Below, piece after piece: positions 8,048 to 59,901 of a DNA stretch of 64,000 bases. Under the pieces are notes generated by a model. That model did no database searches. It was not told where the DNA came from and saw nothing but the letters and a program-made list of their open reading frames with translations. Source of the DNA: Clostridia bacterium (lineage in GTDB: Bacteria > Bacillota > DSM-521 > Neomoorellales > SLTJ01); NCBI GenBank assembly GCA_024653205.1, contig JANLFO010000003.1, forward strand, positions 83,901 to 147,900. The letters are read 5' to 3'. Positions within the stretch are counted from its first letter, which is position 1; the number at the start of each line of letters is the position of its first letter. The position numbers and the translations under genes were made by a program.

Positions 8048-8063
8048 TTGAATCCCCCCCAAG

Positions 8064-8100: not shown

Positions 8101-8103
8101 TTG

Positions 8104-8166: not shown

Positions 8167-8180
8167 TTCAGTTGAAAAAT

Positions 8181-8209: not shown

Positions 8210-8283
8210 ATCCCCTCGGGCCGGTCCTGGTTCCGGAAACACCGCCTCCGGCCCTCAGCGTCTGCCGGTCGGGCCAGGACGGC

Positions 8284-8649: not shown

Positions 8650-8665
8650 TTCTTCTCCCTCCCTG

Positions 8666-25997: not shown

Positions 25998-26009
25998 GCC
26001 GTCCACCTC

Positions 26010-27838: not shown

Positions 27839-27919
27839 CCCCAGCCTGCAGAGCTTGCCTGGCCGAGTGTTCGTCCTGGCCTGCCCCGCCTTCAGGGCAG
27901 GCCAGGACGGGGCCGGGCT

Positions 27920-33444: not shown

Positions 33445-33651
33445 TCATAACTTGATCTTCCTTACTATCTGGTCCATCTTTACGGGCTCATAATCTTCAA
33501 TAATAAGGCTAATCTCCCCGTACTCTATGCCCCGAATGAAGTCCAGCAGTTTCCTTTCCTTTTCCGTCAGTTCGTCCTCGGTCACCAGGGCTTCCGGCCT
33601 TCTCGCTTCCACGCGCATCACCTTCCCGTGCGAGATTTCCGCCTGGCCCAT
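33445..33651 (-). CDS. DUF2292 (YezD-like) small protein
   Basis: 68 residues from the ATG at 33651, or 57 from the ATG at 33618. The core TEKERKLLDFIRGIEYGEISLIIEDYEPVKMD is the DUF2292/YezD pattern (YGEI-x-I-x-I-x-D-G/E-x-P-V). Its function is unknown; YezD lies in sulfur-related loci in Bacillus. The ATG at 33651 directly follows the T-run of the cobalamin riboswitch terminator, and the only ribosome binding site for it (GGAGG) lies inside that hairpin, so B12 would be expected to repress it. A second family member is at 59638-59781. Confidence 0.75.
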   Translation of the reverse strand: MGQAEISHGKVMRVEARRPEALVTEDELTEKERKLLDFIRGIEYGEISLIIEDYEPVKMDQIVRKIKL

Positions 33652-33654
33652 ATA

Positions 33655-33985
33655 AAGACCCCGGCCTCCGAAAGGAAGCCGGGGTCTTACCCGCCGATGC
33701 CACCACGCCGATCTAAACGGCCTGAGCACGGTTGCAGCTGTCCGCCTTTCCTCGGAAGGCTGGGAGCAGTGGCCGTCGGGGCAGGTCTCCTGGCTTGCGG
33801 CTCCTGGCTTCCCTCCGCCTTCCCGCCCCTCACCGGCGCCAGCGCTGCGCACTTGGCCGCCCGCTAGCCGGACAGTGGCACCCTGGAGGGTTGCTCCCCG
33901 CTCACAGTGGCCGGACCGCCCGGGATTCGCACCCGGTTCCCTCTCAGTCCGCTCTTTCCGCGGAACCCCGACGGTCGGTTATTCG
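33655..33985 (-). promoter_or_regulatory. Cobalamin (B12) riboswitch
   Basis: Minus strand. The B12 box AGCCAGGAGACCTGCC (33780-33800), the upstream core AGGGAACCGGGTG..GAATCCCGGGC and GGCCACTGT (about 33904-33955) and the paired GGTGCCACTGTCC are all present. The expression platform ends in an intrinsic terminator GACCCCGGCTTCC / GGAGGCCGGGGTC + TTTAT (33655-33688). It starts 20 bp after the barrel/SLH gene and lies directly before the DUF2292 gene. A long open frame through it (to 33852) is not protein-coding. Confidence 0.95.
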
Positions 33986-34005
33986 GTTTTTTGGTCTTTA
34001 CCCGT

Positions 34006-35619
34006 TTACCTAGTCCCTACTATTCTTCTCAGCCGCGCCACGCTCCAGGCACATTGGGCGCGGGTGACGGGCTTTTGCGGTTCGAACCCGGGGTAGAGCC
34101 AACCCAAACTCTCTGCCACCCGGATATACCCCTCCGCCCACCCCTTTCCCGGCTCCCGCAAAGCCTCGGTTTCCTTTTCCCGGCCGGCCACCCGCACCAG
34201 GATGGCCATAAGCTGCTCGCCGGTTATGTTTGCCCCTGGAGAGTAGACTCCTTCGCTCGTGCCTCCTACGTACCCCCGGGCGGCGCATACCCCTATGCAC
34301 CCATCTGCCCAATGCCCTGGAGCCACATCCCGAAATACGTCCGAGCCCCGGTTGTTCTGCGTTTCTCCCTTCAGCCCCAGGCCGTACACCAGATACTTGG
34401 CGAACTCCGCCCGGGTCAGCGGTGCCTGGGGCCGAAAGGTGCCGTCGGCATATCCGGAGAGCACGTAGCTGTAGACCAGCTCCATGGTCTCGTCAAAACC
34501 GAACTGGCCCGGCTGGTAGTCACTGAACAGGTACTTCTGGGCCTGGGGCCGGTATTTCTCGTGCAGCAGGTCGTAGACTGATCTTCGGTTGTACGCGTCC
34601 GCCAGGGCGTACAGGGCTTCGTAGGTGGAAATGGCGTTATCGTAGATGGGAAGGTTCTCCTCTTCCCGGAGCACGTGGGTAAAGCTGCCGTCCGGAAGCT
34701 GGAACCTCAGGAGGGCGCTCACCGGATTACCGCCAGAGGGCTTGGTCCACTCCGGCCCCATGGGATCCTGCCCCAAGAGGGTGAGCGCTTGAATCACCCA
34801 AGCGCAGCTTTCCGGATTCTCCGTTCCCCAGGAATGAAACCCGCCGTTGTCCAGTTGCTTCTTCCTGAGGAAGTCCAGGGCCCTGGCCACCGCCGGGTTG
34901 CTTTCGTCCTCGCCGAGGATGGCGAAGGCCATCAAGGCGGCCGCGGTCATGTCTACGTCGGACTCTACGAGTTCGTAGTCCTTGGGGTCGTCGAAGTATT
35001 TCACGTCCCAGGTGAAACCGCCATCCTGATGCTGCTGCTTCTGGAGCCACTCCAGGCACCGATCCCGATTGGGTATCGGCTCGCCCGCGCAGTGCAGGGC
35101 GATGATGGCGAAGATATGGGCATTCACCAGGTCTTCGCCTACTGGCAAACCGGTCTTGTTATCCGCCACCGAATCGGCAAACTTGCCGCTGGGCAGCATG
35201 GTGCTTTTCACGATCTCCACCAGGTTCAAGCCCCCGAAGTTCCGAGGGTCCTTTCCCGCAGCGCACACGCCGATGATGGTGCGCTGAAAGTCGGTATTCT
35301 TGGTTTTGGAAAGCCCGATGCCCTGCCGCACTTCCTGCTCCCGCCACCAGGCACCGTTCTTGCCGTTCACGGTCCACCGGGGCCCGCTCACATCCTCCCC
35401 GAAGCCGAACAGACCCAGGGCGGGCCAGTCCAAGATGCCCCTGTACTCCCGCGGCCGGTAGGCCTCCTGGTAGTAGGCAATGGTTTTCTGCGCCGCCCGG
35501 TACACGTCTTCGCGGCTGAGCCCGGCTGCCGCAGCCGGAGCGGGCCTGAACCACACCGCCGTGAATAAGGCAAGCGTTAAGATAAGCACCGGCGCCAATC
35601 TCGGATTCCTACCCGCCAA
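34006..35619 (-). CDS. Exported alpha/alpha-barrel (prenyltransferase-repeat) protein with SLH anchor
   Basis: 537 residues from a TTG at 35619 (AGGAGGGG just upstream). Signal peptide (LAPVLILTLALFTAVWF..APAAAA). Residues about 35-350 are squalene-oxidase/prenyltransferase repeats (QKQQHQDGGFTWD, DVDMTAAALMAFAIL, KKQLDNGGFHSWGTENPES), the fold also used by the cobalamin-binding domain of intrinsic factor and transcobalamin. Residues about 385-537 carry SLH repeats (SGYADGTFRPQAPLTRAEFAKYLV) that bind cell-wall polymer. DPRNFGGLNL, DGGF and WGTENPES recur in the 2114-residue protein upstream (DPRNVGGYNL, DGGW, WGTYNSES), so the two are paralogous. Leader element 1 precedes it and a B12 riboswitch follows it. 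No cyclase catalytic motif seen; a binding role is likelier. Confidence 0.8.
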   Translation of the reverse strand: MAGRNPRLAPVLILTLALFTAVWFRPAPAAAAGLSREDVYRAAQKTIAYYQEAYRPREYRGILDWPALGLFGFGEDVSGPRWTVNGKNGAWWREQEVRQGIGLSKTKNTDFQRTIIGVCAAGKDPRNFGGLNLVEIVKSTMLPSGKFADSVADNKTGLPVGEDLVNAHIFAIIALHCAGEPIPNRDRCLEWLQKQQHQDGGFTWDVKYFDDPKDYELVESDVDMTAAALMAFAILGEDESNPAVARALDFLRKKQLDNGGFHSWGTENPESCAWVIQALTLLGQDPMGPEWTKPSGGNPVSALLRFQLPDGSFTHVLREEENLPIYDNAISTYEALYALADAYNRRSVYDLLHEKYRPQAQKYLFSDYQPGQFGFDETMELVYSYVLSGYADGTFRPQAPLTRAEFAKYLVYGLGLKGETQNNRGSDVFRDVAPGHWADGCIGVCAARGYVGGTSEGVYSPGANITGEQLMAILVRVAGREKETEALREPGKGWAEGYIRVAESLGWLYPGFEPQKPVTRAQCAWSVARLRRIVGTR

Positions 35620-35651
35620 TGGCTCCCCTCCTTTCCTCAAGCAGCCGACAT

Positions 35652-35704
35652 AAAAACAAGAGGCACCCCCCTGGCGGTGAAGTGCCTCCGGCTTTCCGGT
35701 CGGC
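35652..35704 (-). promoter_or_regulatory. Conserved leader/terminator element, copy 1
   Basis: Minus strand: GCCGACCGGA-AAG-CCGGAGGCACTTCACC, then the complementary GGGGGGTGCCTC and a T-run (TTGTTTTT). GCC/CCGG..CCGG/GGC can form a small hairpin that shares AGGC with the larger terminator stem, so the two are mutually exclusive. It ends about 35 nt before the TTG start of the barrel/SLH gene. Copies 2 and 3 are at 47690-47747 and 59511-59566. Confidence 0.65.
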
Positions 35705-35898
35705 GCATTTTTGCGTAAGCTATACCTCGGCAGCTAAATCTTACCACGCTCCAGCCCCTCCGTCAATGCGCCCAGTTGCGCCGCGACGGCCCGGGCTCCC
35801 GCGGCCGGGGGCCTAGAGAAGGGGCCAGGGAGCGGGCCCGTAACCCGCTCCCCTAGATTTTACCTCCTCTGATCCTCCGTTCCCTTGCTACTTCCCAC

Positions 35899-36371
35899 CT
35901 ACTTCCCCAGCTCCGGCAGCTTCTGCAGCAGCCGGTAGAGCACCACCGCGGCTTCCGCGCGGGTGGACTGGCCCCGGGGCTCAAAGCGGTTGGCCTGCCG
36001 GCCCCGCATCAGGCCCTCCCGCACCGCCAGGGCTACGGAGTTTTTCGCCCAGGTGGAGATCTCCCCGGCGTCGGCAAACCCGGCCAGCAACCGGGCCGTT
36101 TCCCGGTCGTCAATGCTCAGGTCCGGGCCGCTCTTGGCCAAAAGCCGCACCATCATGGCCGCCATCTGCTCGCGGGTGATGGGCTGCTGGGGGGAGAAGG
36201 TGCGCTCGCCGGTGCCGGATACCAGGCCGGCAGCGGCCGCCGCCCCCACCATGCCCCGGTACCAGGCGTCAGCCGGTATGTCGCCAAACCGGGCCGCGGC
36301 TTCGGGGTTGGGTGCCAGCCCCGCCATGCGGGCCAGGATGACCGCGAACTGGGCCCGGGTGACGGTGGCCT
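35899..36371. repeat. 473-bp direct repeat, copy A (SLH-coding)
   Basis: Aligns without gaps to 46772-47244; I count about 29 mismatches (roughly 94% identity). Copy A encodes the last 157 residues of the 2114-residue protein. Similarity stops abruptly after GACGGTGGCCT in both copies. Confidence 0.9.
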
Positions 36372-39300
36372 CGGGGGCAAAGCGGTCCTCGCTTATACCC
36401 ACTACGTAGCCCTTGCCGGCCATGAATTCGATTTCTTTCTGCGCCCAGTGCCCGGCAATGTCCGGGAAGGTCTTTGCTGTCCCCGGCGCGGTGGTGACCG
36501 CCGCTGCGGCCGCCGGAGAGAGGCTCTCCAGGAGGGCGTACTTGCTGAGGTGCTCTACCTTCACACTTATGGTCCCTTGGGCCGCATCGTAAGTGCCGCC
36601 CACTTCTTCCCAGCTTTGCTTGGCTTCGTCGTAGCGGTAGGCTTTTACCCTACCGGCCGCCGCCGCCTCTTTGGCCGCCTCGGGCACCGGGAGGATCACC
36701 CTGAGGTCCGGCCAGCGGGCCACGCTTTGCCGCTTGCCGTCCTTGTCCACTACCGCCAGGTCCAGCTCGTACACTTCGCCTACCAGCCGGTGCTGCTCTC
36801 CCAGAGCGGCGAGCAGATCACGAACCGCGCTCGCGTCTAGCTTCTGCGCCTTCAGCTCCAGTTGCGCCGTCCCGGCGGCGGTTACCTCCGGCACTTTAAG
36901 GCTATCGGCGGACAGGACAAACTGCACTCCCTGAACGCTGACGGCCAGCGGCTTTTTCGCCTCCCAGATTTTGCTCAACTGTTCCCTGGACAAGACCAAC
37001 AGGGTTTGCACGCCGTCCGCCTCTAGGGCTACTACGCCGGTGGTGGCAGCCTTCTTGAGGGCCTCCTCCAGGGCGGTGTCGCTCACCGGGGCGGCCGGGC
37101 CGCCGGGGACAATGGCGCTTCCGGTCACGGTGATGGTTACCGGCACCGGGCGCACCATGTCCCGCAGGCCCCGGCTGTCATACCTCTCCGCCGACACCTC
37201 ATAGGTGCCCGGTTGGTAGAACCTGATCACCGCCTGGCCGTTTTCATCGGTCGCCACGGGTGTGCCCTCCGGCTGGTACTCCTGGCCGTTGACGTATATC
37301 ACCGCCCCCTTGAGCTTGGCGCTGACGGTGGGGCCGGTGCCGCTGGAGCCGGACAGGTCGGTCTTGGTCCCGGTCAGGGTGAGGGTTATCTCCTCGCCGG
37401 TTTTGGCGCTGGTCTTGGAGGCGCTGAGCTGGGTGTACCAGGTTTCGAAGCCGTAGACGGCAAAGTACCAGACGATGTCCTCACCGCCCTTGAGCGTGTA
37501 GGCCTGGCAGCCGTAATCGGGCAGGACCCCGTTTACCCGGTACAGCCAGCCGGAGGTGCTGCGGTAGTCGAACTCCCGGTCGCCGGCGATCATGGCCACG
37601 TAGAGGGCCCAGCCGTAGTCCTGGAGGTCCAGGCCGCTATCGTGGTCCGTGCAGTCGATACCCACGGATTCCAGGGCTCGGATCAGCGCGTGGGCCACCG
37701 TCGGTTTCGTCAACTTGTCCGGCCCCCAGCCCGGGGAAGGCTCGGCGGAAATGCCGGAAGCAGGTCCCAGGTAGGGCGTGAGGTCGAAGTTGTCCACCAC
37801 CACTCTGGTCCTCGGCACTATGGTACAGTCATACCCTTCCACCCGGATGTATACCGACACGCTGCCCGAGGAGGGGGGCTGCCCGCCGCTACCGGACGTG
37901 GTCTGGGTGTAGATGACGAACCGGGTGAGGTGCTTGGTCCAGACCACCAGGTCCTGGCCCACGTCTATTCTGCCGTCACCGCCGGCGGGCAGGGCGTCTC
38001 CGGCTTGCTGGCTGTCGGAGGTCATTACGGTGGTTATCTTGGTGAAGACGCCTTGCCGGTAGTAGCCCACTTCCTTGCCCGCCTGGCCGGCAAACACCAG
38101 CCTTACGGCCCGGTCAAAGACCAGTTCCTGGTCCTCGGCGCCCACTTCGATGACTGCCTGCACGGTGGCGGTCTTGCCGGGGTCCGGGGTCACGGTGACG
38201 CTGCTGTTGGGCTTGATGGTGGGGAGGTTTAGGGTGCCCGCCCAGGTGAGGGGCGCACTGATGCCGGTGTTCTGGGGTATCTCTACCTTTACCTGCCCCG
38301 CACTGGTCTCAGCCTGCACGGTTAGAGCTTGGGGGATGGTGGCGCGCTTTTGCCCCTCGGTTTCAGTAACCAGCGGTATTAGGTTGAGGCGGGCTTCGGT
38401 GACGTTTTGCGGCACGGTTACGGTGGCCGCAGGACTGTCTTGGTCCAGGGTGAGGTCTTTTTGGGCCTCGCTGACCATTACCTCTTGCTGTCTTACCGGT
38501 GCGGGGTTGAGGTATAGGGTTATGGGAGCGGAGTCGACCGCCCCGGGCTCGACTACGGCGCTGGCCTTTATGACCACGGTTACGGGGGTGAGGCGGCTTA
38601 GGGCCTGATGGGCCGCGCCGGTGACGGTGATTATTACGGTGTTGCCCTCGCCTTTGGCCGCGGCAGCGCTAAGCCCCGCCGGCAGGCCGGTAAGGGTGAG
38701 ATCGGCGGCGGAAAGGTTGTCCTTCACCGTTCCCGAAGTCAGTTGTATGCTCCAGGCGTTGTCGCTCTGGGCAACCTCCCGGTTCCCCGCCGCCAGGGTC
38801 ACGCTGGGGTCGGTAGCCTTCCCGGCCACTTTGACCGCCGCGTATTCCCCGAAGTAGTAGATGGAGGTGCGGCCGCCGTTATAGGCCCCGTTGTGGCGCA
38901 CGAACTTGTCGTAGGCCAGAAGCGCCTGGTAGCCCTGCTCGGTGGCCATGCCGGTTACGCCGCTGCCGTCCAAGGTGTGCAGGATGGAGCCGTCGGCCTG
39001 CAGGAAGTCCAGCAGCGCCTCCACCAGATTCTTGTTCTTGGTGAACCGCTCCGAGGTGGGATCGATGCCGTTGGCGCACAGGGCGATTATGGCCTGCGAC
39101 ACGGACTCGCTGTTATAGGTGCCCCAGGAGTAATAACCGCCTTCAGGCGCTTGTTTTTGCGCCAGCCACTCTACCGCCCGGTCGATGGCCGCCGAAACGT
39201 CCTCCCGGTCACGATAGGGCGCCAGACCGATGAGGGTCATGGCGGTGATGTCCACGTCGCTGTTGCCCGTGGCCCCCAGATCCCAGCCGCCGTCGGCGTT

Positions 39301-42243
39301 CTGGTGCTCCAGCAGGTACTGAATCATCCAGTCGCGGCTGTAGCGGGCGTCGGCCGGTATCGGCCAGCGCATGGTGTCCAGGGCGATCAGGCCGTAGATG
39401 ACCCCGTTCAGCCCCTGGAAGGTGATGTCCCGGGGCTGGCTGGGGCCGGCGGGCGGGTTGGCGGGGATGTAGAAGTTGTATATTCTTTCCAGCAGGTTGT
39501 AGCCGCCCACGTTCCGGGGGTCACCCCCGGCGGCCACAATGCCCAAAACCCGCCGCTCGTGGTCGGTTACCTTTTCCAGCTTGGTGTTGACTATGGTGGC
39601 AAAGTAGTTCTGGACCTCAGCGGTCACGTTGCTGAGGTAGTTAGCCGGGATTTCTTCACCGGCGTTCCTAAGCCCCACCACCAGCCAGTCGGAGCTGTAG
39701 GTTCCCTGGGTCTTGACGTAGTTGGTAACCAGGCCGATTGCCTGCCGTACCCGGGTGATGAGGGCGTCCTGCGCCTGGGGTTGGTAGTATACGGTGTAGG
39801 TCCGATGGGCTTTGTTCCCGGCGGCGTCGGTGGCTTCCACGGTGATGGAGTTGCTGCCCTCGGCCAGGGTGCAGGTGTAGCTGCCGCCCTCGGCCGGGGT
39901 CAGGAGGGTTTGGTTCAGGCGCACTACGGGTGTAACCGGCCCGTCGGTTTCGTCCTCCGCCGCCACGGTGAAGCTCAGCTCGGCCAAGGCTACGCTCATG
40001 CCGTCACTAAGCCCGGTTACGGTGATGGCCGGCGGGGTGGTGTCGGTCGGCGCCTGGGGGGTTGAGAGCGTAAATTCCTCTTTCTCCCCGGCAACCGCCA
40101 CCACTGCGGTGTACTCCCGGCCCGGCGGCAGCCGGAAGACCTTCTCTGCTTGACCCTGAGAGTCGGTGTCAAACTGGTCGATGTAGTAGCGGGTGGAATC
40201 GGCCTCAACCACCAGGGTCACCGGCTGCCCCGGATAGGCGGTTTGCAGGCTTAAGGTAATCAGACCGCCGGGCTCCACCGTGGGGTAAACCTGGAGGTGG
40301 TCTCCGGTGGTGGAGGCCACGGTTATGAGAATGGAGGCCGGCTTTACCGCGCCGTCGGCGCCGAAGATGTTCCAGCCCTCGCAGCTCACCTCGTAGGTGC
40401 CGGGCGCGGTGAAGGTGATGGCTGCCCGGCCCTGGGAATCGGTGGTTACGGGGTTATCCCCCACCAGCCAGGGCTGGCCGTTGACCAGCAGGGTGGCGTT
40501 GGGGATGGGCCGCACCTCGGTCTCGCCCACCCCGCTGGGGGCGGAAAGATCGGTCCTCTCGCCGGTTAACGTGAAGTGAACGGTTTCGCCCGGCTCCACT
40601 TCCTCCCGGTCGGCCCGGAAATTCACGTACCAGGCGTCAAAGCCGGTGGCGGAGTAATACCAGACCACTTCGTCCCCGTCGTTTAGGTAGTAGGCCTGAG
40701 AGCCGTAGTTGGGCAGCCAGCCGTTCACCCGGTAGAGCCAGCCGGACATGGGGCCCTGGTCGAATTCCCGGTCCCCGCCGATCATGGCCACGTACAGGGC
40801 CCAGCCGTAGTCCTGAACGTCGAACTCGGTGGGGCCGTCTACCGGATTATTTGGGTCGTGCTTGGTGAAGCCCCTATCCGTAAGGGCCTTGAGCAGGATG
40901 TGCAGGGCCGTGGGACCTTCAAACCGGTCCACCTCCCAGCCCTGGGAGTAGGGGTTGGCCGAGGAGCCCGTGCCCGGGTTAAGGTAGGGGCCGCCGGCGC
41001 TGCCCAGGCCGAAGCGGGCTACGCTGATCCTGGTTCTGGGGATGATGGTCCGGTCGTAGCCCTCTACCCGGAGGTAGGCGGTCACCTCGCGGTCGTAGTT
41101 GACCGGAGGAGGGGCGGGAATGGTGCTTCCGTAGTAAAGTATGGGGGTGTCGAAATAGTTGTTGGCGTAGGGGGTTCCCAGCCCCACCACCAGGAAGTCC
41201 CGCCGATCGAAGACGTGGAAGTCGCAGACCGTGGCGGCCAGCAACTCGTCGCTCTGCCTTCTTACCTGGTACCAGTTGCCGTCGGCCTTGCGCAGGTAGA
41301 GCTTGCCGTCCATGACGGCGTAGAGGTCGTCCAGAGCCGTGCCGGCAAGTTTGGTAGGCGCGTGGGGCGCCTGGCCCAGGCTGGCCCACTGGCCGGTAGC
41401 GGTGTCCAGAACTGCTATTTCCCGACCGTAGCCCACCAGGAGCTTCCCGTCGGCGGTTTTCCCGGTGCAGGTAGCGGCCTTGCCCGCCACTTGCGGCAGG
41501 GGCGTTACCGGCGTCCAGGCCCGACCGTCAAAGTAGTGCAGGCCTTCGGCCGTGCCCGCGTAGACGGCGGTGGTTACCGTCCCGTAGACGCTGTCGGCAA
41601 CCGAGAATCCGTCCAGGCAGGTCACGGTCTTGCCGCCGAAGTAGTCCAGCAGGCTCCAGGAGAAGCCGTCGTAGCGGTAAAGCCCGCCGTCTCCCCGGGC
41701 CACGTAGATCTCGTCGGCGCTAAGGCCCCAGATGCGGGCCGGGTTTTCCACCCCTTCTACCCGGGTGAGGTCGGCGCCGTTGTAAAGGTAGAGGCCGGGG
41801 CTCATCGGGCTTTGGGTGCCGAGGTTCACCAAATAGATGTGGTTTTTGTCCGGACCCCACAGATCGGTGAATTCGTACTGGTGGTTTTTGCGGTCAATGG
41901 CGTCTACCTTGTAGCCGCAGTAGAGGCTGGTCCAGCGGTCCTCCCCCACGTAAGCCACCAGGGAGCCGTAGACGCTGATCCCGTACATGTCCTGGGGGGA
42001 GAAAACCAGCAGCTTGGTTAGGCCGTCTTTTACGTAGTCGAATATGCCGCCGATGGAAGAGGCCGGTTGCATTTCCAACCGGTAGGGGTGCATTTCCCGG
42101 AAGTCGTACTTTTGCACATATACTTCTTCTGCCCGGGCCTGCCCCGGGGGTAGCGCCAGGGAAGTGGCCAGCAAAAGGGCGGCTACCAGGCAGGCAAGCA
42201 GCCTCTGGGAGAGACGGCTCGGCTTTCTCATTCTGGCTAGCAT
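35899..42243 (-). CDS. Giant S-layer protein: two DUF4430 domains, alpha/alpha barrel, three SLH domains
   Basis: 2114 residues. Signal peptide 1-38; beta-propeller-like repeats about 60-375; DUF4430 (transcobalamin-like C-terminal domain) about 385-532 (SGWLYRVNGWLPNYGSQAYYL, GDEVVWYYS); Ig-like modules 540-820; prenyltransferase-repeat barrel about 825-1125 (EHQNADGGWD, DVDITAMTLIGLAPY, WGTYNSES); further beta modules; second DUF4430 about 1462-1594 (SGWLYRVNGVLPDYGCQ); Ig-like and mixed modules; three SLH repeats 1926-2114. The two DUF4430 domains are closely related, so they arose by duplication. Barrel plus DUF4430 is the layout of intrinsic factor/transcobalamin; binding of corrinoid is inferred and not shown. 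Its SLH tail is nearly identical in DNA to 46772-47244. Start ATG has GGAGGTG 11 nt upstream. Confidence 0.85.
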   Translation of the reverse strand: MLARMRKPSRLSQRLLACLVAALLLATSLALPPGQARAEEVYVQKYDFREMHPYRLEMQPASSIGGIFDYVKDGLTKLLVFSPQDMYGISVYGSLVAYVGEDRWTSLYCGYKVDAIDRKNHQYEFTDLWGPDKNHIYLVNLGTQSPMSPGLYLYNGADLTRVEGVENPARIWGLSADEIYVARGDGGLYRYDGFSWSLLDYFGGKTVTCLDGFSVADSVYGTVTTAVYAGTAEGLHYFDGRAWTPVTPLPQVAGKAATCTGKTADGKLLVGYGREIAVLDTATGQWASLGQAPHAPTKLAGTALDDLYAVMDGKLYLRKADGNWYQVRRQSDELLAATVCDFHVFDRRDFLVVGLGTPYANNYFDTPILYYGSTIPAPPPVNYDREVTAYLRVEGYDRTIIPRTRISVARFGLGSAGGPYLNPGTGSSANPYSQGWEVDRFEGPTALHILLKALTDRGFTKHDPNNPVDGPTEFDVQDYGWALYVAMIGGDREFDQGPMSGWLYRVNGWLPNYGSQAYYLNDGDEVVWYYSATGFDAWYVNFRADREEVEPGETVHFTLTGERTDLSAPSGVGETEVRPIPNATLLVNGQPWLVGDNPVTTDSQGRAAITFTAPGTYEVSCEGWNIFGADGAVKPASILITVASTTGDHLQVYPTVEPGGLITLSLQTAYPGQPVTLVVEADSTRYYIDQFDTDSQGQAEKVFRLPPGREYTAVVAVAGEKEEFTLSTPQAPTDTTPPAITVTGLSDGMSVALAELSFTVAAEDETDGPVTPVVRLNQTLLTPAEGGSYTCTLAEGSNSITVEATDAAGNKAHRTYTVYYQPQAQDALITRVRQAIGLVTNYVKTQGTYSSDWLVVGLRNAGEEIPANYLSNVTAEVQNYFATIVNTKLEKVTDHERRVLGIVAAGGDPRNVGGYNLLERIYNFYIPANPPAGPSQPRDITFQGLNGVIYGLIALDTMRWPIPADARYSRDWMIQYLLEHQNADGGWDLGATGNSDVDITAMTLIGLAPYRDREDVSAAIDRAVEWLAQKQAPEGGYYSWGTYNSESVSQAIIALCANGIDPTSERFTKNKNLVEALLDFLQADGSILHTLDGSGVTGMATEQGYQALLAYDKFVRHNGAYNGGRTSIYYFGEYAAVKVAGKATDPSVTLAAGNREVAQSDNAWSIQLTSGTVKDNLSAADLTLTGLPAGLSAAAAKGEGNTVIITVTGAAHQALSRLTPVTVVIKASAVVEPGAVDSAPITLYLNPAPVRQQEVMVSEAQKDLTLDQDSPAATVTVPQNVTEARLNLIPLVTETEGQKRATIPQALTVQAETSAGQVKVEIPQNTGISAPLTWAGTLNLPTIKPNSSVTVTPDPGKTATVQAVIEVGAEDQELVFDRAVRLVFAGQAGKEVGYYRQGVFTKITTVMTSDSQQAGDALPAGGDGRIDVGQDLVVWTKHLTRFVIYTQTTSGSGGQPPSSGSVSVYIRVEGYDCTIVPRTRVVVDNFDLTPYLGPASGISAEPSPGWGPDKLTKPTVAHALIRALESVGIDCTDHDSGLDLQDYGWALYVAMIAGDREFDYRSTSGWLYRVNGVLPDYGCQAYTLKGGEDIVWYFAVYGFETWYTQLSASKTSAKTGEEITLTLTGTKTDLSGSSGTGPTVSAKLKGAVIYVNGQEYQPEGTPVATDENGQAVIRFYQPGTYEVSAERYDSRGLRDMVRPVPVTITVTGSAIVPGGPAAPVSDTALEEALKKAATTGVVALEADGVQTLLVLSREQLSKIWEAKKPLAVSVQGVQFVLSADSLKVPEVTAAGTAQLELKAQKLDASAVRDLLAALGEQHRLVGEVYELDLAVVDKDGKRQSVARWPDLRVILPVPEAAKEAAAAGRVKAYRYDEAKQSWEEVGGTYDAAQGTISVKVEHLSKYALLESLSPAAAAAVTTAPGTAKTFPDIAGHWAQKEIEFMAGKGYVVGISEDRFAPEATVTRAQFAVILARMAGLAPNPEAAARFGDIPADAWYRGMVGAAAAAGLVSGTGERTFSPQQPITREQMAAMMVRLLAKSGPDLSIDDRETARLLAGFADAGEISTWAKNSVALAVREGLMRGRQANRFEPRGQSTRAEAAVVLYRLLQKLPELGK

Positions 42244-42269
42244 TCTTGCTCACACCTCCCCGAAAAGCC

Positions 42270-44537
42270 TTACTCTACGCTCCATACCAGCGGCACCGCC
42301 AGCAGGGGCCGCATGCCCTCAAAGCTGTCCCACACCAGGGCCTTTAAGGTGTAGGCGCCGCTTGAGGGAATGGTGAGGCCGCCGGCGGTGAGCTCCGCCT
42401 GCTCTCCGGCTCCGACCTCGCGCGAGGTCGAATCATAGGCCACCATGGCCTTGCTCTGCTCGTCGTAGAGGCAGACGATCAGGGTGACCGGCTGGGAAGC
42501 AGTGGTCTGGTTGCTGATGCTCACGGTTACGCTGGCGGTATCGTCCAGGGAGAAGCCGCCGGTGCCCACCCTTTCGATCTGCAGCTCGCCACCGGCCGCC
42601 GGCGGCAGGGTGACGGAAAGTTTCACCGGAGCGTTCTGCCAGTTGCCCGCCGCGTCTTTGGCGATGAGGTATATCTCGTAGGCCGTGCCGGCGCTGAGGC
42701 CGCTTATGGACCGGCTCACTTCCTCCGTGCCCGGCACCTCTGCCGGGGTCCAGCTCTCATACTCGCTTCCGGGAGCCACCCCCTCTTCCACCACCCGGTA
42801 GTACGCCGTGCCGGGCTCGTTTAGCTTGAGCCTGAGCGTAAAGCCGGTGGGTACTATGTTGTCTACCGAAGGATAGCCCGGGGCGAACTGCGGCGGGGTG
42901 GTGTCCGAAGGGGCGGGGTTATAAGTCACGGTGTAGGTGGCCGTGGCTCGGTTGCCGGAATCGTCCGTGGCTTCGATGTGGATGCTGTTCTCGCCCTCGG
43001 CCAGGGTTACGGCAAAGAGGAAGCTGCCGTCTGGCTGGCGGGTGCCGAAAATAACCTGGCCGCCAGCCCCGCCCAGCTTCACCACCGGCACTACCGGGCC
43101 GTCCACTTGGTCGTAGGCGCTGACGGTAAAGCTCAGCTCCGGGGAGGACACGGTCATGCCCTCGCTAAGCCCGGTGACGTTAATCGCCGGGGGCGTGGTG
43201 TCGCTCGGCGCGTAGCGGGTGAGTTTGTAGAGGTCGGAGCCGATGGCGAAATATACGCTGCCATCCAGGCCGGTGCAGGCGTTGGTGGGGCTGGGGGTGC
43301 CGGTAAGGTCAGCCGGCAGCTCTAGCTCCCTCCAACTCGTGCCGTCAAAGAACTGGGCGGTATCCCGGTGGACGAATATCAGGCCGGCACCCAGCCCAAT
43401 GCTTCCGGAGGTGGTACCCTGCAAATAACTGACATCAAAGGCTGCTTCTTCCGCCCAGTTCCCGTTTCTGTACCGATAAATATGTCCAGTATCACCAAAG
43501 GCGGCGCTGGTAACGGCGAGTATATCCTCGTCATTTAGCGCCCATATTCTCTGGAGGCGGTTCAGGTTCAAGCCCACCGGCGAGATGTCCGCCCACTCCC
43601 CGCTGGTTCGGTTGTACCGGTAGAGTACGGGCCGGTTAGTGTTCGAGGACAGATACCCCCCGAGGTACAGGTAGCCGGAAGTGCACGCCCCGGTGAGGAA
43701 TCTGGCTTGGGGAAGACCTGCGGCCTCGTAGTCTATCTTCTGCCAGACGTTTAGCGCGGGATTATAGCGCGCCACCCCCTCGCGGAAGGAAAAGACTTCG
43801 TTGCTGTCCCCAACCAGATACTGCGGATTGGTTATTTCGCATGGCATCCGGTCATACACCACACCGCTTACGCTGCGGCGAAGGTAGTAAGTGCCTGATC
43901 CGGCCCGTTCCGTGAAGAAGAAGTCGTCCTCCGCCAGGGCATACGCTCTCATGATCGGATACCCTAGGTCGCGCGAGGTTCCCTGGGCAAAATCAACTAT
44001 GGACGCGTTCTGGGACGCCTTCGAGCCCCGGACCACAAACCTATCCGGGCCTATGTTGACCAAGACTCCGGAGGCGTCCACCGGTCCAAGCTTCTGCCAG
44101 GTATAGCCCTGGACCTTGGCAGTGGTGGTGAACTCTAGCTTGTACGTGGTGGCCGGAACTCCATTTTTGGTGAAAAGAAGGTAAGCATCGTACGAGTGCT
44201 CGGGTTGGAGGCCAGACACCGTTCCAGTTCCCCTACCAGTGCCGTACCAACCCCAGTCAATCTGGCGACCACTGCCTATGATGCTGTCCACCGAGGGCTC
44301 CGGCGCCCCATGATCCAACAACAGGATATAGCTACTACTCATATCGAGCCCCTCGGCGGCATACTCGATAACCACAAAGGTGGAACTTAAGGTGGCCACC
44401 GCGGGTGGATAGGTGAACTCCGGACCGTTAGCCGCATGTGCATTCCCAGGCACCGAAGAGTAAGCGGAAAGAAAGATTAGCGCGGCGAGCGCTGCCAGAA
44501 CCAAGCGATTGCCGCTTCTTTTCCTTATGGTAAGCAT
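42270..44537 (-). CDS. Exported multi-domain beta protein (propeller/Ig/CARDB-like)
   Basis: 755 residues. Signal peptide (LVLAALAALIFLSAYSSVPGNAHA). Fibronectin/Ig-like N-terminus (TYPPAVATLSSTFVVIEY), a kelch/propeller-like middle (about 140-450, repeats such as DRFVVRGSKAS, EDILAVTSAAFGDTGHIYRYRNGNW), an Ig module ITVEATD-like (NSIHIEATDDSGNRATATYTVTYNP, about 530) and a CARDB-like C-terminal module (LQIERVGTGGFSLDDTASVTVSISNQ). No SLH, lipobox or sortase signal. The DTTPPAINVTGLSEGM module is nearly repeated in the 2114-residue protein (DTTPPAITVTGLSDGM), so the two genes share modules. Placed 26 bp upstream of it, presumably in one operon. Function unknown; surface or secreted. Confidence 0.72.
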   Translation of the reverse strand: MLTIRKRSGNRLVLAALAALIFLSAYSSVPGNAHAANGPEFTYPPAVATLSSTFVVIEYAAEGLDMSSSYILLLDHGAPEPSVDSIIGSGRQIDWGWYGTGRGTGTVSGLQPEHSYDAYLLFTKNGVPATTYKLEFTTTAKVQGYTWQKLGPVDASGVLVNIGPDRFVVRGSKASQNASIVDFAQGTSRDLGYPIMRAYALAEDDFFFTERAGSGTYYLRRSVSGVVYDRMPCEITNPQYLVGDSNEVFSFREGVARYNPALNVWQKIDYEAAGLPQARFLTGACTSGYLYLGGYLSSNTNRPVLYRYNRTSGEWADISPVGLNLNRLQRIWALNDEDILAVTSAAFGDTGHIYRYRNGNWAEEAAFDVSYLQGTTSGSIGLGAGLIFVHRDTAQFFDGTSWRELELPADLTGTPSPTNACTGLDGSVYFAIGSDLYKLTRYAPSDTTPPAINVTGLSEGMTVSSPELSFTVSAYDQVDGPVVPVVKLGGAGGQVIFGTRQPDGSFLFAVTLAEGENSIHIEATDDSGNRATATYTVTYNPAPSDTTPPQFAPGYPSVDNIVPTGFTLRLKLNEPGTAYYRVVEEGVAPGSEYESWTPAEVPGTEEVSRSISGLSAGTAYEIYLIAKDAAGNWQNAPVKLSVTLPPAAGGELQIERVGTGGFSLDDTASVTVSISNQTTASQPVTLIVCLYDEQSKAMVAYDSTSREVGAGEQAELTAGGLTIPSSGAYTLKALVWDSFEGMRPLLAVPLVWSVE

Positions 44538-44649
44538 GGGCTGACACCTCCCATGAAAAAACCACTAGATTTAGGGGAAGACCCCGGTATAGGAAAGGCA
44601 CCTGCGTTTCTAAATAGTAATAAGGCAATAACGAGCCAAAACGGAGAGG

Positions 44650-44683
44650 TGCCTCTGCGCGGGCGTAGCCCCGCGCAGAGGCA
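44650..44683 (-). terminator. Perfect 14-bp palindromic hairpin
   Basis: TGCCTCTGCGCGGG and CCCGCGCAGAGGCA around a 6-nt loop, 14 bp after the stop of the PQQ-propeller gene. Only CCGTTTT follows at some distance, so it is either a weak terminator or an mRNA stabiliser/processing hairpin between two operon genes. Confidence 0.55.
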
Positions 44684-44696
44684 TATTCTCGGCTTC

Positions 44697-46559
44697 CTAG
44701 TGGACATAGTAGAGATAACCCGAGTCATCCCCGTAGAAGAGCTTGCCGTCAGCGGCCGCAAAACCCTGCAGCACGTAGTTTTGGCTGGTATAGGTCCATC
44801 GGCCTTCTGACTTCCATTGCTCTTCTTCTTCGTCGTAGTAATGCTTTACGCAGACGGCCCGGCCTCCCTGGTTGTTTTCCGTGACATAGATGTAAATCTC
44901 GGTATCGGAAGCCGGGTAGACCACAGGTGAGGACTGGATTATCCGCAAATTCAGGTCATTGGGATCCTCACTTACCAGTTCGACAGGACGTCCAAAACCA
45001 CCGCCGGAAACCGGCACCGCCCACAAGCCGGAACCGCCGTAAATCCGGCCCATTCCCACGTACACCCAGTCGCCGTACCTGACCGGCGTAGAGGTGCAGT
45101 AGTTCTGCGGCTGTACGGGAGTTACTGCGCCCACTATCCTCTGGGTTGTTGGGTTATACTCAAGCTGGTACAGGTACCCGTCAGCAGAGGTCAGGTAGAG
45201 ATAGTCGTTCCCAGTGGCGTTGTCGTAGTAACAAATAGAGGAGCGTATAGGCTCATTGCTCTGCGTCAGGTCGTAGGCCTGCACGCCGGGGGTGTTGGTG
45301 TCCTGGTCTACCTCTATTGCATTGCCGTCCTGGTCCGGCTCCAACTTTACCACGTGGACCTTACCGTCTTCGTCACCGAAAATGGCCACATCGTCCACGC
45401 AGGCGGCTCCGGCCCAGTAGTAACCCTTGGGCGAACCTCCGGTGTACTCCCACTTGACCTGTCCCGTATTGGCATCAATGCAGAAGTACTTTCCGCCCGT
45501 ACTGCCCGTCCATTTACCCAGCAAGAGGTAGGAGCCAGTGGCGTTCTGGTAGTACTTCAAAGGCGTATTGGCCTGGCCGGACTGGGCGAGGTTGCAGAAG
45601 TTGCTGTTCAAGCTGAGCGCACCCGTACCCAACCCCGTCACCTTCTCCACCCCCATGCTCTGGGCTATCACCTGGCAGTCGGTGAAGCAGCAGGTGGCGG
45701 TGGAGGAAGCGGAGGTAGTATAATCGAACACGAAGCGGATGTCGTAGTTTACGCCTGAATTAGGGAAGTAGGTGGTGCTGATGTTTTCATTGACCGGTAC
45801 CCACGTATCGTAGGCCGTAGGCGTAATGGTCAGCGCCGTGTTCCAGGTGGAATCGCTGGGCCTTTTTACTTGCACCTTGATGAGCCGCTGGCTGGGCGGA
45901 GATCCGGTATACTGCTGCAAGTAGGAAAAGGCAATGCGCACGTTGGAGTTGCTGGGCACGTACACGGTCTGCTGGATATAGCCGTCTCCGTCGGTGGAAG
46001 GATCGTTCTCGTGGATCCGGGCACAGGTCTTACCCGATACGGTGGTCTGGGAAAACTCCGGGGAACCGGCCGAGCTACCCGTGGTCCACCCGTCTAAACT
46101 CGTGGTAAAGTCCTTGTTCTGAGTCTGGTTTAAATGGGTGTTTACCCCAAGGAAAATGCTGTTCCCGTCAGAGGCCGGGGTGCAAAGTTGGAAACCCCCC
46201 GTGTCTACGGTCAGCGGTGTGGATCCTGCCACCAGGGAATTGCCGCTGGTGTAGTACTCGTATAGCTTCTGGAAGGGGAAGACGTAAACGTAGCCCGTGT
46301 CGTTGGTGGTCACGTAAATAGGGGTGGAATCTATGCCGAAAAAGCTCCCGTATTCGGTTTGCACTGAGGTGACCGTAGCGGTAGACCCGGTGGGCAGCGC
46401 CGCACCGGTGTAAATCCCGCTGTTCTTCGCGTCCTTCTGGAACTGCGGCCAGTCGGCGGCAAGCGCCGGCGTGGCCGCAACCAACGCAACCAATAATAAG
46501 GCAAGAAAGATTACCAACGTCTTCTTCCCCACGTTTAAAGCACCTAGACTGATAGGCAT
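44697..46559 (-). CDS. Exported PQQ-like beta-propeller protein
   Basis: 620 residues. Signal peptide (VIFLALLLVALVAATPALA) followed at once by DWPQFQKDAKNSGIYTG, the usual first blade of PQQ-like/PQQ_2 propellers. Further blades: GGKYFCIDANTGQVKWEYTG, GAACVDDVAIFGDEDGKVHVV, DYLYLTSADGYLYQLEYN and ADGKLFYGDDSGYLYYVH. A jelly-roll-like insert sits at about 165-300 (QNKDFTTSLDGWTTG...FSYLQQYTG). No catalytic or anchoring motif, so a secreted or surface binding/scaffold role is likely. Thr/Ser/Asn-rich and slightly AT-richer than its neighbours, hinting at separate history. Precedes the multi-domain gene by 160 bp. Confidence 0.75.
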   Translation of the reverse strand: MPISLGALNVGKKTLVIFLALLLVALVAATPALAADWPQFQKDAKNSGIYTGAALPTGSTATVTSVQTEYGSFFGIDSTPIYVTTNDTGYVYVFPFQKLYEYYTSGNSLVAGSTPLTVDTGGFQLCTPASDGNSIFLGVNTHLNQTQNKDFTTSLDGWTTGSSAGSPEFSQTTVSGKTCARIHENDPSTDGDGYIQQTVYVPSNSNVRIAFSYLQQYTGSPPSQRLIKVQVKRPSDSTWNTALTITPTAYDTWVPVNENISTTYFPNSGVNYDIRFVFDYTTSASSTATCCFTDCQVIAQSMGVEKVTGLGTGALSLNSNFCNLAQSGQANTPLKYYQNATGSYLLLGKWTGSTGGKYFCIDANTGQVKWEYTGGSPKGYYWAGAACVDDVAIFGDEDGKVHVVKLEPDQDGNAIEVDQDTNTPGVQAYDLTQSNEPIRSSICYYDNATGNDYLYLTSADGYLYQLEYNPTTQRIVGAVTPVQPQNYCTSTPVRYGDWVYVGMGRIYGGSGLWAVPVSGGGFGRPVELVSEDPNDLNLRIIQSSPVVYPASDTEIYIYVTENNQGGRAVCVKHYYDEEEEQWKSEGRWTYTSQNYVLQGFAAADGKLFYGDDSGYLYYVH

Positions 46560-46771
46560 TTTCCTACGAACCTCCCCAATCGTGAAATTGGACTTGGGCC
46601 TACAGCCCTGTCCAGTTCCCCACCCTTGCTTCTGCCGCTTCCGCCCGACCTTTGTGGTTGCTCGGGATTACAGACGTTACACGGCAAGATGGCAACTGTT
46701 TATCTCGCGTAATCCCTCACCTCCCCGGGGGCAGTCGGAATACCCACGTGCCCGACACAACTTCTCCCTAC

Positions 46772-47299
46772 CTACTTCCCCAGCTCCGGCAGCTTCTGCA
46801 ATAGCCGGTAAAGCACCACCGCTGCCTCCGCGCGGGTGGACTGGCCCCGGGGCTCAAAGCGGTTGGCCTGCCGGCCCCGCATCAGGCCCTCCCGCACCGC
46901 CAGGGCTACGGAGTTTTTCGCCCAGGGGGAGATCTCCCCGGCATCGGCAAACCCGGCCAGCAACCGGGCCGTTTCCCGGTCGTCAATGCTCAGGTCCGGG
47001 CCGCTCTTGGACAGGAGCCGCACCATCATGGCCGCCACCTGCTCCCGGGTGATGGGCTGCTGCGGCGAGAAGGTGCGCTCGCCGGTGCCGGATACCAGGC
47101 CGGCCGCAGCCGCCGCCCCCACCATTCCCCGGTACCAGGCGCCAGCCGGCAGGTCGCTAAACCGGGCCGCGGCTTCGGGATCGGCCGCAAGTCCCGCCAT
47201 CCGGGCCAGGATGACCGCGAATTGGGCCCGGGTGACGGTGGCCTGCACGCCTCCGTTATTTACCCACCCCCGACCCTGGCTGGCAGCCCAGCCAAGCAA
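46772..47299 (-). pseudogene. SLH-domain remnant behind a B12 riboswitch
   Basis: An open frame of 175 codons of which the last 157 are the SLH tail of the 2114-residue protein (VTRAQFAVILARMAG to LLQKLPELGK). The first SLH repeat is cut in half, and there is no signal peptide and no convincing ribosome binding site (TTG 47299 lies in the riboswitch terminator; a GTG at about 47248 is 1 nt after GGAGG). The riboswitch abuts this remnant directly, so a B12-controlled SLH protein gene seems to have lost nearly all of its body by deletion. Copy B of the 473-bp repeat spans 46772-47244. Confidence 0.75.
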
Positions 47300-47665
47300 G
47301 AACCCCGGCTGCTTCCGAAAGCCGGGGTCTTGACGGTGCGCAAGGCACTATCGGGAGCGGTACGCCCCTGGCGGCCGTTTAATCGCCCGTCGGCCGCCCG
47401 GCATTACCGCCACCAGCTTCCCGCCTTTCCTCGGAAGGCCGAAGCGGTCCACCGCCGGGGCAGGTCTCCTGGCTTGCGGATCCTCGCTCTCCTCCGCCTT
47501 CCCGTCCCTCACGCGCGACAACCTGCTGACAGCGCCGCCGCACGGCAACGGACAGTGGCACCCTGGAAGGTCGCTCCCCGCTTACAGTGGCCGGGCCGCC
47601 CGGGATTCGCACCCGGTTCCCTTTTAATCCGGAAATCTCCCGGAACCCCTGCGGTAGCTCTGTTC
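47298..47665 (-). promoter_or_regulatory. Cobalamin (B12) riboswitch, second copy
   Basis: Minus strand, complete consensus: AAAAGGGAACCGGGTGCGAA, CCGGCCACTGTAAGCGGGG, GGTGCCACTGTCC and the B12 box AGCCAGGAGACCTGCC (47459-47479). The platform ends in the hairpin GACCCCGGCT / AGCCGGGGTTC followed by TTGCTT (47300-47330). Conserved arms match the copy at 33655-33985 closely, including GGGAACCGGGTGCGAATCCC. Downstream lie the SLH remnant and, after further gaps, the exported propeller and giant S-layer genes. Confidence 0.96.
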
Positions 47666-47689
47666 AGTTTTGCGGCCGGCATACACCGC

Positions 47690-47747
47690 CATAAAATACG
47701 AAAGGCACTCCCCCCTTGGGTGAAGTGCCTCCGGTGGTCCGGTCGGC
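47690..47747 (-). promoter_or_regulatory. Conserved leader/terminator element, copy 2
   Basis: Minus strand GCCGACCGGA-CCA-CCGGAGGCACTTCACC followed by GGGGGGAGTGCC and TTTCGTATTTTATG. Located about 30-90 nt upstream of the second B12 aptamer and about 90 bp after the VWA gene, so the RNA would meet this element first and then the riboswitch (tandem arrangement), unless it simply terminates the MoxR cluster. Confidence 0.65.
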
Positions 47748-50348: not shown

Positions 50349-51888
50349 GCCTGGCCACCTCCCCCTCCAGGAGCAGCAGAGCCAGCACCAGGGCCAGAGC
50401 CGCCCTTGCAAGCGGCACGGCCAGCGGATTTGGGGGCGGGCGGCTTGCGGCCGAAGCGGCGTCGAGCCCTTCTCCCGTTATCAGGGCGGCGGGCGGGTTG
50501 TCCGGGTGTTCCCCGGCCGCGTCGGCGGCCAGCCATTGGACCAGGTTGTTCACCAGCAGGGGAAAGTCGGGCCGGGTGACGAGGTTGGTGCGGCGGAAGT
50601 CCAGACTGGAGTAGACGGTTCTCCGCCCGTTTTCTACCCCGGCGACCATCACCGGCAGGTCGCCCGCCTTCAACACCACTTGCATCCCCTCCCCCGCCGG
50701 AAGGGCCACCGCCCCCTCCAGGTAAACCTCTTTCAAAACCAAACCCTCGGTTAAGGGGGAGGGAAGCGCCTTTAAGGGGAGGCGCTCGTTAACCTCCGGT
50801 AGCGCGGAGCCGGCCGCCAGGCACCAGACCCCCGCCCTCTCCGGGAGAGCGGGCGGCAGTTGGCCGTCGGCTGCAATCACTACCTGGGCCCGACTTGCCT
50901 CCTCCCCGGCTGCCTCTTCGTTGCTTTCGACCTTGAGCAGCGCCGCGTCGGCCATGGCGGCGAGCGCCTTTTCCACAAAAAAGTCGCCCCCGAGCAAAAG
51001 CACTCTTTTCTTTCCCTGGTTTCCCGCCGGCACGAAATAGGCGTTGTCCTCTGCCAGCGCGTCCGGGTCCTCTATTTTAAGGGTGAGCACCCCTTCGGCC
51101 GCCGGCGCCGCCAGGGAATACTCGGCCTCGGACTGAGGAGACAGCTCGGCGGCAACAGCGTCCAGCAGCGTAGACCCCTGCCACAGGCTTAGGGTGACCT
51201 TTTTCTTCCCGGAGGAATAGTTCTTTACCGCGAACAGAACTTCCCCGTGGTAGTAATCGTAGCGCGCCCGGATAAGGCCCACGTTGTCCAGCGCTCCTCC
51301 CACCCTCACTATCCGGTCGCCCAGTTGCAGGTTCTTGTCCGTCACCAGGATGACCGGGGAGGGATAGGCGGCCAGCCGGGCGGCCGCCAGGGCGGCGTTC
51401 AGGGGACGGGAGGCGCACTGAGCGCGGGCCAGGGCCTCCAGCGCCTCGCGGGGAGCGGCATCAACGACCAGCTCCTGGACTCCTTCGGCCAGCAGGACAA
51501 GCGTCACCCTGGCGCCTTCCGAAAGATCGCGGATAATCCGGCCCGCTTCCTGCCTGGCCTGCTCGAACCTGCTGGTTCCCGCCTCCACCGCCCGCATGGA
51601 AAAGGACCCGTCCAAGGCCACCACCACCCGCTCCGCGGGGAAGGGGCGGGCCCAAAGCGGCCCGGCGGCCGCCAGGACCAGGAAGAGCCCCGCCAGGAGT
51701 TGCAAGAGGAGCGACAGGTACCGGTCCAGGCGCCTAAGCCGGAACCCCTGCTCCTCCCTCAGCGCCTCCTCCCAAAACCGCAGGCTGGGCACCCGGTATT
51801 CCACGACCGGCTGCTTCTTGAGATAGAGCAGCACCATTACCGGCAGGAGTAGACCCAGCAGCCACCCTTCCGGTCTAAGAAAGCTCAT
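50338..51888 (-). CDS. BatA/VWA-type membrane protein
   Basis: 516 residues from the ATG at 51888. The start SFLRPEGWLLGLLLPVMVLLYLKKQPVVEYRVPSLRFWEE is the BatA N-terminal module with a first helix and the usual L-Y-L-K motif. A second helix at about 55-75 is followed by a VWA-like domain (ERVVVALDGSFSMRAVEAG) with a D-G-S-x-S MIDAS. Last helix about 485-505. It overlaps the start of the next VWA gene by 11 nt and the DUF58 stop by 4 nt. A long N-terminal extension of the frame up to 52446 is antiparallel coding noise over the DUF58 gene. Confidence 0.82.
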   Translation of the reverse strand: MSFLRPEGWLLGLLLPVMVLLYLKKQPVVEYRVPSLRFWEEALREEQGFRLRRLDRYLSLLLQLLAGLFLVLAAAGPLWARPFPAERVVVALDGSFSMRAVEAGTSRFEQARQEAGRIIRDLSEGARVTLVLLAEGVQELVVDAAPREALEALARAQCASRPLNAALAAARLAAYPSPVILVTDKNLQLGDRIVRVGGALDNVGLIRARYDYYHGEVLFAVKNYSSGKKKVTLSLWQGSTLLDAVAAELSPQSEAEYSLAAPAAEGVLTLKIEDPDALAEDNAYFVPAGNQGKKRVLLLGGDFFVEKALAAMADAALLKVESNEEAAGEEASRAQVVIAADGQLPPALPERAGVWCLAAGSALPEVNERLPLKALPSPLTEGLVLKEVYLEGAVALPAGEGMQVVLKAGDLPVMVAGVENGRRTVYSSLDFRRTNLVTRPDFPLLVNNLVQWLAADAAGEHPDNPPAALITGEGLDAASAASRPPPNPLAVPLARAALALVLALLLLEGEVARRGL

Positions 51889-52748: not shown

Positions 52749-52749
52749 C

Positions 52750-59637: not shown

Positions 59638-59781
59638 TTACAATTCCATAGAACTCTTCTTTTCTTCTACCCTTACAGGCTGGCCCTCGTGAATGATAAT
59701 CTTGATCTCGCCGGACTTGGTAGTGCGGATAATCCGGATCAGGTTAGCCTCTTTGGTGGTCAACTGCCGGACGCTGCTCAA
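59638..59781 (-). CDS. DUF2292 (YezD-like) mini-protein
   Basis: 47 residues from a TTG with GGTGGTGGAA upstream. Sequence LTTKEANLIRIIRT plus SGEIKIIIHEGQPVRVEE fits the DUF2292 core (GEI-x-I-x-I-H-x-G-x-P-V). The frame is open further back without a stop until the TGA that ends the HybB-like gene at 59902, so it lies downstream in the hydrogenase operon and before leader element 3. Too short for ordinary gene callers. Confidence 0.6.
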   Translation of the reverse strand: MSSVRQLTTKEANLIRIIRTTKSGEIKIIIHEGQPVRVEEKKSSMEL

Positions 59782-59901
59782 GGTTCCACCACCTTTGTAG
59801 GGCCCCATAGGAAACTGGAAGACTGCTCCGGGTAGATGATAGTCTGCGACGGCCAGTCTGTCAATCTCAACTTTGAAACCTCGATCGTCTAGATCCTTGC
59901 G

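Follow-up and report, generated by a model that had tools for sequence, protein, structure and literature searches.

Predicted S-layer-anchored corrinoid-capture proteins in a transporter-less clostridial gene cluster related to riboswitch-linked ECF-CbrT operons

The subject here is a group of minus-strand genes accompanied by two cobalamin riboswitches in a 64,000-nt stretch of DNA (the window) from Clostridia bacterium GCA_024653205.1 (contig JANLFO010000003.1, 83,901-147,900, forward strand). In order of transcription the group comprises riboswitch 2, a fragment with SLH sequence, genes for proteins of 620, 755, 2114 and 544 amino acids, riboswitch 1 and a DUF2292 gene. For the 2114-residue surface protein (35899-42243, minus strand as are all cluster features below), Pfam gives, in succession, DUF4430, immunoglobulin (Ig)-like domains, an alpha/alpha barrel of the SQHop/prenyltransferase type, further Ig-like domains, a second DUF4430 and three SLH domains. 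The first DUF4430 (PF14478) spans residues 385-537 (40633-41091), the barrel residues 821-1116 (38896-39783; E 3e-78 with a family hidden Markov model, HMM) and the second DUF4430, also from Pfam and 57% identical to the first, residues 1457-1601 (37441-37875), while the SLH repeats, a cell-wall anchor, form three stretches in 35902-36474 (PF00395, E 3.6e-32). The 544-residue surface protein (34006-35640, TTG start) combines a barrel (34579-35526; SQHop_cyclase_C, 4.5e-14; barrel family HMM, 2e-94) with SLH (1.8e-19). Both domain sets had been given in an initial annotation, made from the sequence alone, and are borne out by Pfam; the length of 537 residues given there for the second protein would correspond, however, to a later start. 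Both proteins have signal-peptide-like N-termini, and with NCBIfam no surface protein was named, matches being far under the cut-offs. SLH domains bind a pyruvylated wall polymer made by CsaB, and the genome from which the window derives encodes CsaB (273.9 bits against a cut-off of 213.1).

Both riboswitches are strong matches to RF00174 (model 1-189, gathering score 31.5 bits). The aptamer of riboswitch 2 (47442-47665) scores 126.1 bits (E 2.9e-31) and that of riboswitch 1 (33763-33985), a full-length match to the model, 100.5 bits (E 6e-24), the two being 85% identical across their best 107 nt. Located 3′ of each is a hairpin followed by a T-rich stretch: terminator-like in the expression platform of riboswitch 2 (47297-47332; -21.2 kcal/mol, z -3.2), and an intrinsic terminator with a 15-bp stem for riboswitch 1 (33655-33688; -30.8 kcal/mol, z -6.3). 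The spans initially annotated as two complete riboswitches (33655-33985 and 47298-47665) are thus aptamer plus terminator, and stand. Since the cluster genes are all on the minus strand, riboswitch 2 is co-directional with, and upstream of, the entire group; riboswitch 1 is downstream of the barrel/SLH genes and 5′ of the DUF2292 gene. Neither is directly before an intact barrel gene, as had already been pointed out. What riboswitch 2 faces is a pseudogene fragment (46765-47244), a 480-nt partial copy, with 93.75% identity, of the 3′ end of the gene for the 2114-residue protein. The open reading frame (ORF) there (46772-47299) has, by Pfam, SLH domains alone and is without a signal peptide; that riboswitch 2 directly drives it as a working gene was considered and rejected, since the ORF reproduces part of the end of the larger gene with 94% identity. 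Because the fragment is such a copy, the gene that once faced riboswitch 2 has apparently disappeared, or else been severed through recombination.

The 2114- and 544-residue proteins are quite probably exported, S-layer-anchored corrinoid-capture proteins. Their genes would form a paralogous cluster, without a transporter, of a system found widely, in which cobalamin riboswitches control barrel/DUF4430 surface proteins together with an energy-coupling factor (ECF) transporter of the CbrT type. Relevant to this is the distribution of DUF4430 in a sample of the phylum, where 80 of 250 genomes have it and riboswitches were mapped in 68 of the 80 (counts are lower bounds, as the match lists ended at low scores). 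In the set used for counting clusters, also of 68 genomes, with the window's own genome added and one genome dropped for want of a listed DUF4430 position, a cobalamin riboswitch is upstream of 60 of the 86 DUF4430 clusters, on the same strand and within 8 kb, where ~0.8 would be expected by chance. On the opposite strand none of the 86 has one upstream, and 10 riboswitches are on the same strand downstream. Several of the riboswitch-less clusters are near contig ends. The 60 are not independent events, the genomes being related, yet they are spread across dozens of families. By the initial annotation's own criterion, its reading would have been refuted had homologues across genomes turned out unlinked to B12 genes and riboswitches; the opposite was found, both in these clusters and in the operon of the CbrT-type ECF transporter.

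That operon was surveyed in 40 loci, one per genome and picked for riboswitch presence, with profiles built from proteins of the window's own genome and its relatives. Almost without exception the order is riboswitch, barrel plus DUF4430 (in most cases with SLH), smaller DUF4430 protein, EcfT, EcfAA′ and S component, with the occasional addition of a barrel carrying a copper-amine-oxidase-N domain before EcfT, or of a barrel and SLH protein like that of 544 residues after the S component. EcfT is present in 38 of these loci and the same S-component family in 37, and any locus without one or other is truncated where its contig or the retrieved range stops. The profile of the S-component family matches CbrT (6fnp) with E 6e-29, the next S component only with 0.009; CbrT is a structurally solved B12 S component for which transport has been proven (PMC5997447). 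A scan of the window found neither a CbrT-like S component nor EcfT, in keeping with the earlier statement that a transporter for the ligand is missing from it, and for this reason the window cluster is regarded as a paralogous branch. The missing entry route would be supplied by an operon that this genome has on another contig, C12 (riboswitch, DUF4430 plus SLH, DUF4430, barrel, EcfT, EcfAA′, EcfS), whose S component matches 6fnp with E 1.1e-10. Tandem cobalamin riboswitches occur in two named isolates, Desulfofundulus thermosubterraneus and D. thermobenzoicus, where they are upstream of genes for barrel-SLH, barrel-DUF4430-SLH and ECF proteins (at 7992-8711 of locus L098 and 1321-2041 of L099), an arrangement that may sharpen the response.

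As for the folds, the best match in the PDB for the DUF4430 profile is transcobalamin-2 (E 0.0026). In a lipoprotein-like homologue, L096, DUF4430 comes directly after a barrel that is ~40% identical to the window barrel, and the top 14 PDB matches of its model are transcobalamin, intrinsic factor and haptocorrin (E 3e-10 to 4e-8, over ~420-450 columns and both domains), with terpene cyclases ranking below these B12 carriers at 1.7e-4. A global root-mean-square deviation (rmsd) of ~21 suggests that the relative placement of the two domains differs in the ligand-free model. Direct adjacency of barrel and DUF4430 is also present in other homologues, such as L090 and L064. (Larger mixed alignments, in which DUF4430 rows were misaligned into the barrel, were dropped.) For residues 385-1130 of the 2114-residue protein AlphaFold yields a confident barrel, with pLDDT mostly 90-98.

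Barrel and DUF4430 would then correspond, in bacteria, to the two halves of intrinsic factor and transcobalamin, and a corrinoid is expected to sit between the two domains. At low intracellular adenosylcobalamin the riboswitches would let transcription pass, and the resulting proteins, held by their SLH repeats on the pyruvylated wall polymer, would bind cobamides or cobinamide outside the cell. Captured corrinoid would pass to the smaller DUF4430 protein and the S component of the CbrT type, and be imported at the expense of ATP. Binding, hand-over and control of the window genes by riboswitch 2 are what we infer; B12 control of the window barrel genes is likely, judging from co-direction and from the riboswitches directly before homologues elsewhere.

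Several points weigh against this interpretation. Run against PDB sequences, the barrel profile ranks squalene-hopene cyclases first and transcobalamin is not among its best 60 matches, so that the barrel alone proves nothing. The decisive fold match comes from L096 rather than from a window protein: the comparison with intrinsic factor and transcobalamin that the initial annotation had put forward came out in favour for that homologue, while for the model of residues 385-1130 Foldseek gave only uninformative, mixed Ig/barrel matches. In the 2114-residue protein Ig-like domains separate barrel and DUF4430, the gap amounting to about 280-340 residues of other domains, and the 544-residue protein is without DUF4430; a composite pocket within a single chain is therefore unsupported by the window proteins. 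Riboswitch 2 faces the pseudogene fragment first, which is why B12 control of the barrel genes here can only be inferred, and a terminator-like hairpin and promoter-like site 5′ of the gene for the 544-residue protein may separate it from that riboswitch's control. Finally, the genome carries cobamide synthesis genes (CbiD, CbiG, CobN, CobU and CobT). Scavenging is thus perhaps not strictly required, and capture would supplement or replace a costly synthesis.

Some of these points can be read as decay. If the family is B12-linked and the window cluster itself has degenerated or been repurposed, its products now being structural S-layer proteins or adhesins with B12 control lost, and corrinoid binding perhaps lost also, then a pseudogene fragment as neighbour of riboswitch 2, a window without a transporter, the numerous Ig-like and propeller domains and the promoter-like and terminator-like sites 5′ of the 544-residue protein's gene would all be accommodated. 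Such decay is nevertheless unlikely, as both large ORFs are intact, a 60%-identical orthologue of the 2114-residue protein is kept in another Peptococcaceae genome (SCADC1_2_3) beside propeller genes and a cobalamin riboswitch, and in genome G251 similar giant and propeller genes are each behind a cobalamin riboswitch. A ligand other than complete corrinoids, for example cobalt, some other tetrapyrrole or just a precursor of corrinoids, is decidedly less to be expected, even though B12 riboswitches can govern cobalt transport as well (PMC2667541), the T component has a score with the CbiQ family and cobinamide is also carried by ECF-CbrT (PMC5997447). The S component matches CbrT and not CbiM, and both DUF4430 by itself and barrel plus DUF4430 match B12 carriers in fold.

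Two further proposals start from the barrel. Its affinity to squalene-hopene cyclases would be explained if the barrels were enzymes (type II terpene cyclases or related), the B12 linkage stemming from some cofactor need, but this is highly improbable: the window barrels are without the cyclase catalytic DxDD motif, having DVDIT and DVDMT in its place, the proteins bear signal-peptide-like N-termini and wall anchors, and when DUF4430 is present the fold matches transcobalamin and intrinsic factor first. That Ig-like domains plus barrel instead make thioester or alpha-2-macroglobulin-like surface proteins is scarcely credible. Foldseek does rank alpha-2-macroglobulin (A2M), thioester-containing protein (TEP) and complement chains first for residues 385-1130, but with template modelling (TM) scores of 0.1-0.25 and rmsd of 20-30, which is no real superposition, and a CxEQ thioester motif is absent from both the 2114- and the 544-residue protein. 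(The A2M and complement matches, with TM ~0.2, were rejected as mixed Ig/barrel noise.)

Proteins of the kind considered quite probable here, corrinoid-capture proteins at the surface, were already known as a prediction, B12 scavenging by them having been proposed by Burroughs et al. in 2007, together with transfer to animals (PMC1796856). These authors described exported fusions of SLBB (DUF4430) with a toroid barrel in Gram-positives, Desulfotomaculum and Moorella among them, the genes often being accompanied by those for another SLBB protein, an ATPase and a CbiQ-like protein (CbiO/CbiQ operons), in hosts usually without key B12 synthesis enzymes (PMC1796856). The window has in common with those operons an exported SLBB protein with alpha/alpha toroid. 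It differs in being without CbiO/CbiQ-like ECF genes, which in this genome are present on C12, and the genome differs from the earlier hosts in carrying cobamide synthesis genes. Going beyond the 2007 account are the SLH anchors, the cobalamin riboswitches, the CbrT-type S component, the 2114-residue form and the transporter-less cluster; in a word search of that paper riboswitch and S-layer were both unmentioned.

Comparison with better-known B12-binding proteins is also pertinent. Like human intrinsic factor, transcobalamin and haptocorrin, the system pairs an alpha/alpha barrel with C-terminal beta-grasp parts. Unlike them, its proteins are wall-anchored and multi-domain, with Ig-like spacers, are sometimes barrel only, and have no receptor, cobalamin binding here being predicted. 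Because other domains intervene between barrel and beta domain, we do not count the window proteins among the members of the intrinsic factor/transcobalamin family and regard them only as having the same parts. With ECF-CbrT of Lactobacillus delbrueckii (PMC5997447) the likeness is the match to CbrT of the C12 S component and its relatives, and the difference is that here a single operon comprises a dedicated ECF module, surface proteins and a riboswitch. The Bacteroides lipoproteins BtuG and BtuH (PMC6143338, PMC8941943) likewise capture B12 at the surface and belong to riboswitch-linked transport loci; by the descriptions in those papers they are, unlike the window proteins, Gram-negative, coupled to outer-membrane transport and made of other domains. 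(The 620-residue protein looks propeller-like, as is BtuG, again a likeness by description.) In the open literature, subscription papers being outside the search, no functional study of DUF4430 or later follow-up of the 2007 prediction was found, and the open literature on CbrT yielded ECF-CbrT and no surface partner. For the riboswitch linkage, the CbrT match, S-layer anchoring and the transporter-less cluster of giant paralogues no earlier report was found.

For thick-walled, S-layered bacteria little is known about B12 capture on the outer side of the membrane, and bacterial relatives of intrinsic factor are, in the literature searched, backed only by the 2007 prediction. The phylum-wide link to riboswitches and a CbrT-type transporter makes that prediction concrete and testable, the Desulfofundulus isolates being offered for the purpose, and bears on the origin of animal B12 carriers.

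The other genes of the cluster also have counterparts in B12-linked loci. The 755-residue exported protein (42270-44537) has Ig-like domains (Glucodextran_B and Big_13 matches) and resembles part of the 2114-residue protein (E 1.5e-26). The 620-residue exported protein (44697-46559), with AADWPQFQKD after its signal peptide and a weak beta-propeller match, has homologues in riboswitch/DUF4430 loci L074, L097 and L107. L074, from genome G104, contains a riboswitch, a DUF2292-like ORF, SLH proteins, two propeller proteins with WPQFQ/WAQFQ motifs (one of the two with DUF4430), DUF4430, ECF genes and a CobQ-like gene, the last named from its sequence and not by profile scan. In L107, from G251, separate cobalamin riboswitches precede a propeller gene of the 620-residue type and a 2220-residue giant with barrel and DUF4430.

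The cluster's DUF2292 gene (33445-33618, ATG at 33618) encodes a small protein of 57 residues, whose PF10055 score, 21.2 bits, is slightly below the 22-bit cut-off. DUF2292-like ORFs are 3′ of cobalamin riboswitches both here and in L074, and DUF2292 may be part of a B12 regulon. A second such ORF (59641-59901, minus strand), followed by a strong terminator-like hairpin, is upstream of a gene for a 467-residue DUF4430 lipoprotein (58080-59483, minus strand; PF14478 E 2.5e-13). This third DUF4430 gene of the window, absent from the initial annotation, is probably related to the same system; a relaxed Rfam scan 5′ of it found no riboswitch. It heads a minus-strand cluster (47835-59483) that continues with a 687-residue protein without Pfam match, a MoxR ATPase, DUF58, a BatA-like protein and vWA. 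In genome G163 (L106) a 57%-identical lipoprotein gene and a homologue of the 687-residue protein are immediately 3′ of a cobalamin riboswitch, which suggests a B12-linked MoxR/vWA envelope system there. Such a link would not be general, since among the 250 genomes searched a full-length homologue of the MoxR-cluster protein at 56036-58099 was found, besides the own genome, only in G163.

A bolder reading is on balance doubtful: the S-layer as a B12-controlled corrinoid trap, whose multi-domain giants, with several half-sites of the intrinsic-factor type, would line the wall and feed the CbrT importer. The adjacent propeller proteins and DUF2292, as well as the MoxR/DUF58/vWA cluster that includes the DUF4430 lipoprotein (59.5-47.8 kb), would on this reading all function in the same B12 regulon.

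Nine cobalamin riboswitches occur in the window's genome (G000; 2.46 Mb, 51 contigs), and others among them are before or near CbiD-CobU, CobN, CobT and NrdD genes, a normal B12 regulon. One (C4:158092-158274, L020) is immediately 5′ of the gene for the anaerobic ribonucleotide reductase NrdD. Elsewhere in the window, with no adjoining riboswitch, is a gene for the ATP:corrinoid adenosyltransferase CobA/CobO (11535-12143, minus strand; Pfam 1.1e-61), the product of which enzyme is adenosylcobalamin. A few kb past the DUF2292 gene, in transcription order, are genes (24131-29469, minus strand) for an ATP-binding cassette (ABC) importer, comprising a solute-binding protein of family 5 (SBP_bac_5) and a pair of ABC ATPases.

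An extreme in numbers is G251, which in 2.9 Mb has 26 cobalamin riboswitches and 13 DUF4430 matches (L107, L108), with giant surface proteins of 2000-2200 residues shortly behind riboswitches, and which by these counts is a large lineage-specific expansion. Near one of its cobalamin riboswitches is a group II intron fragment (L108, 2596-2757, minus strand).

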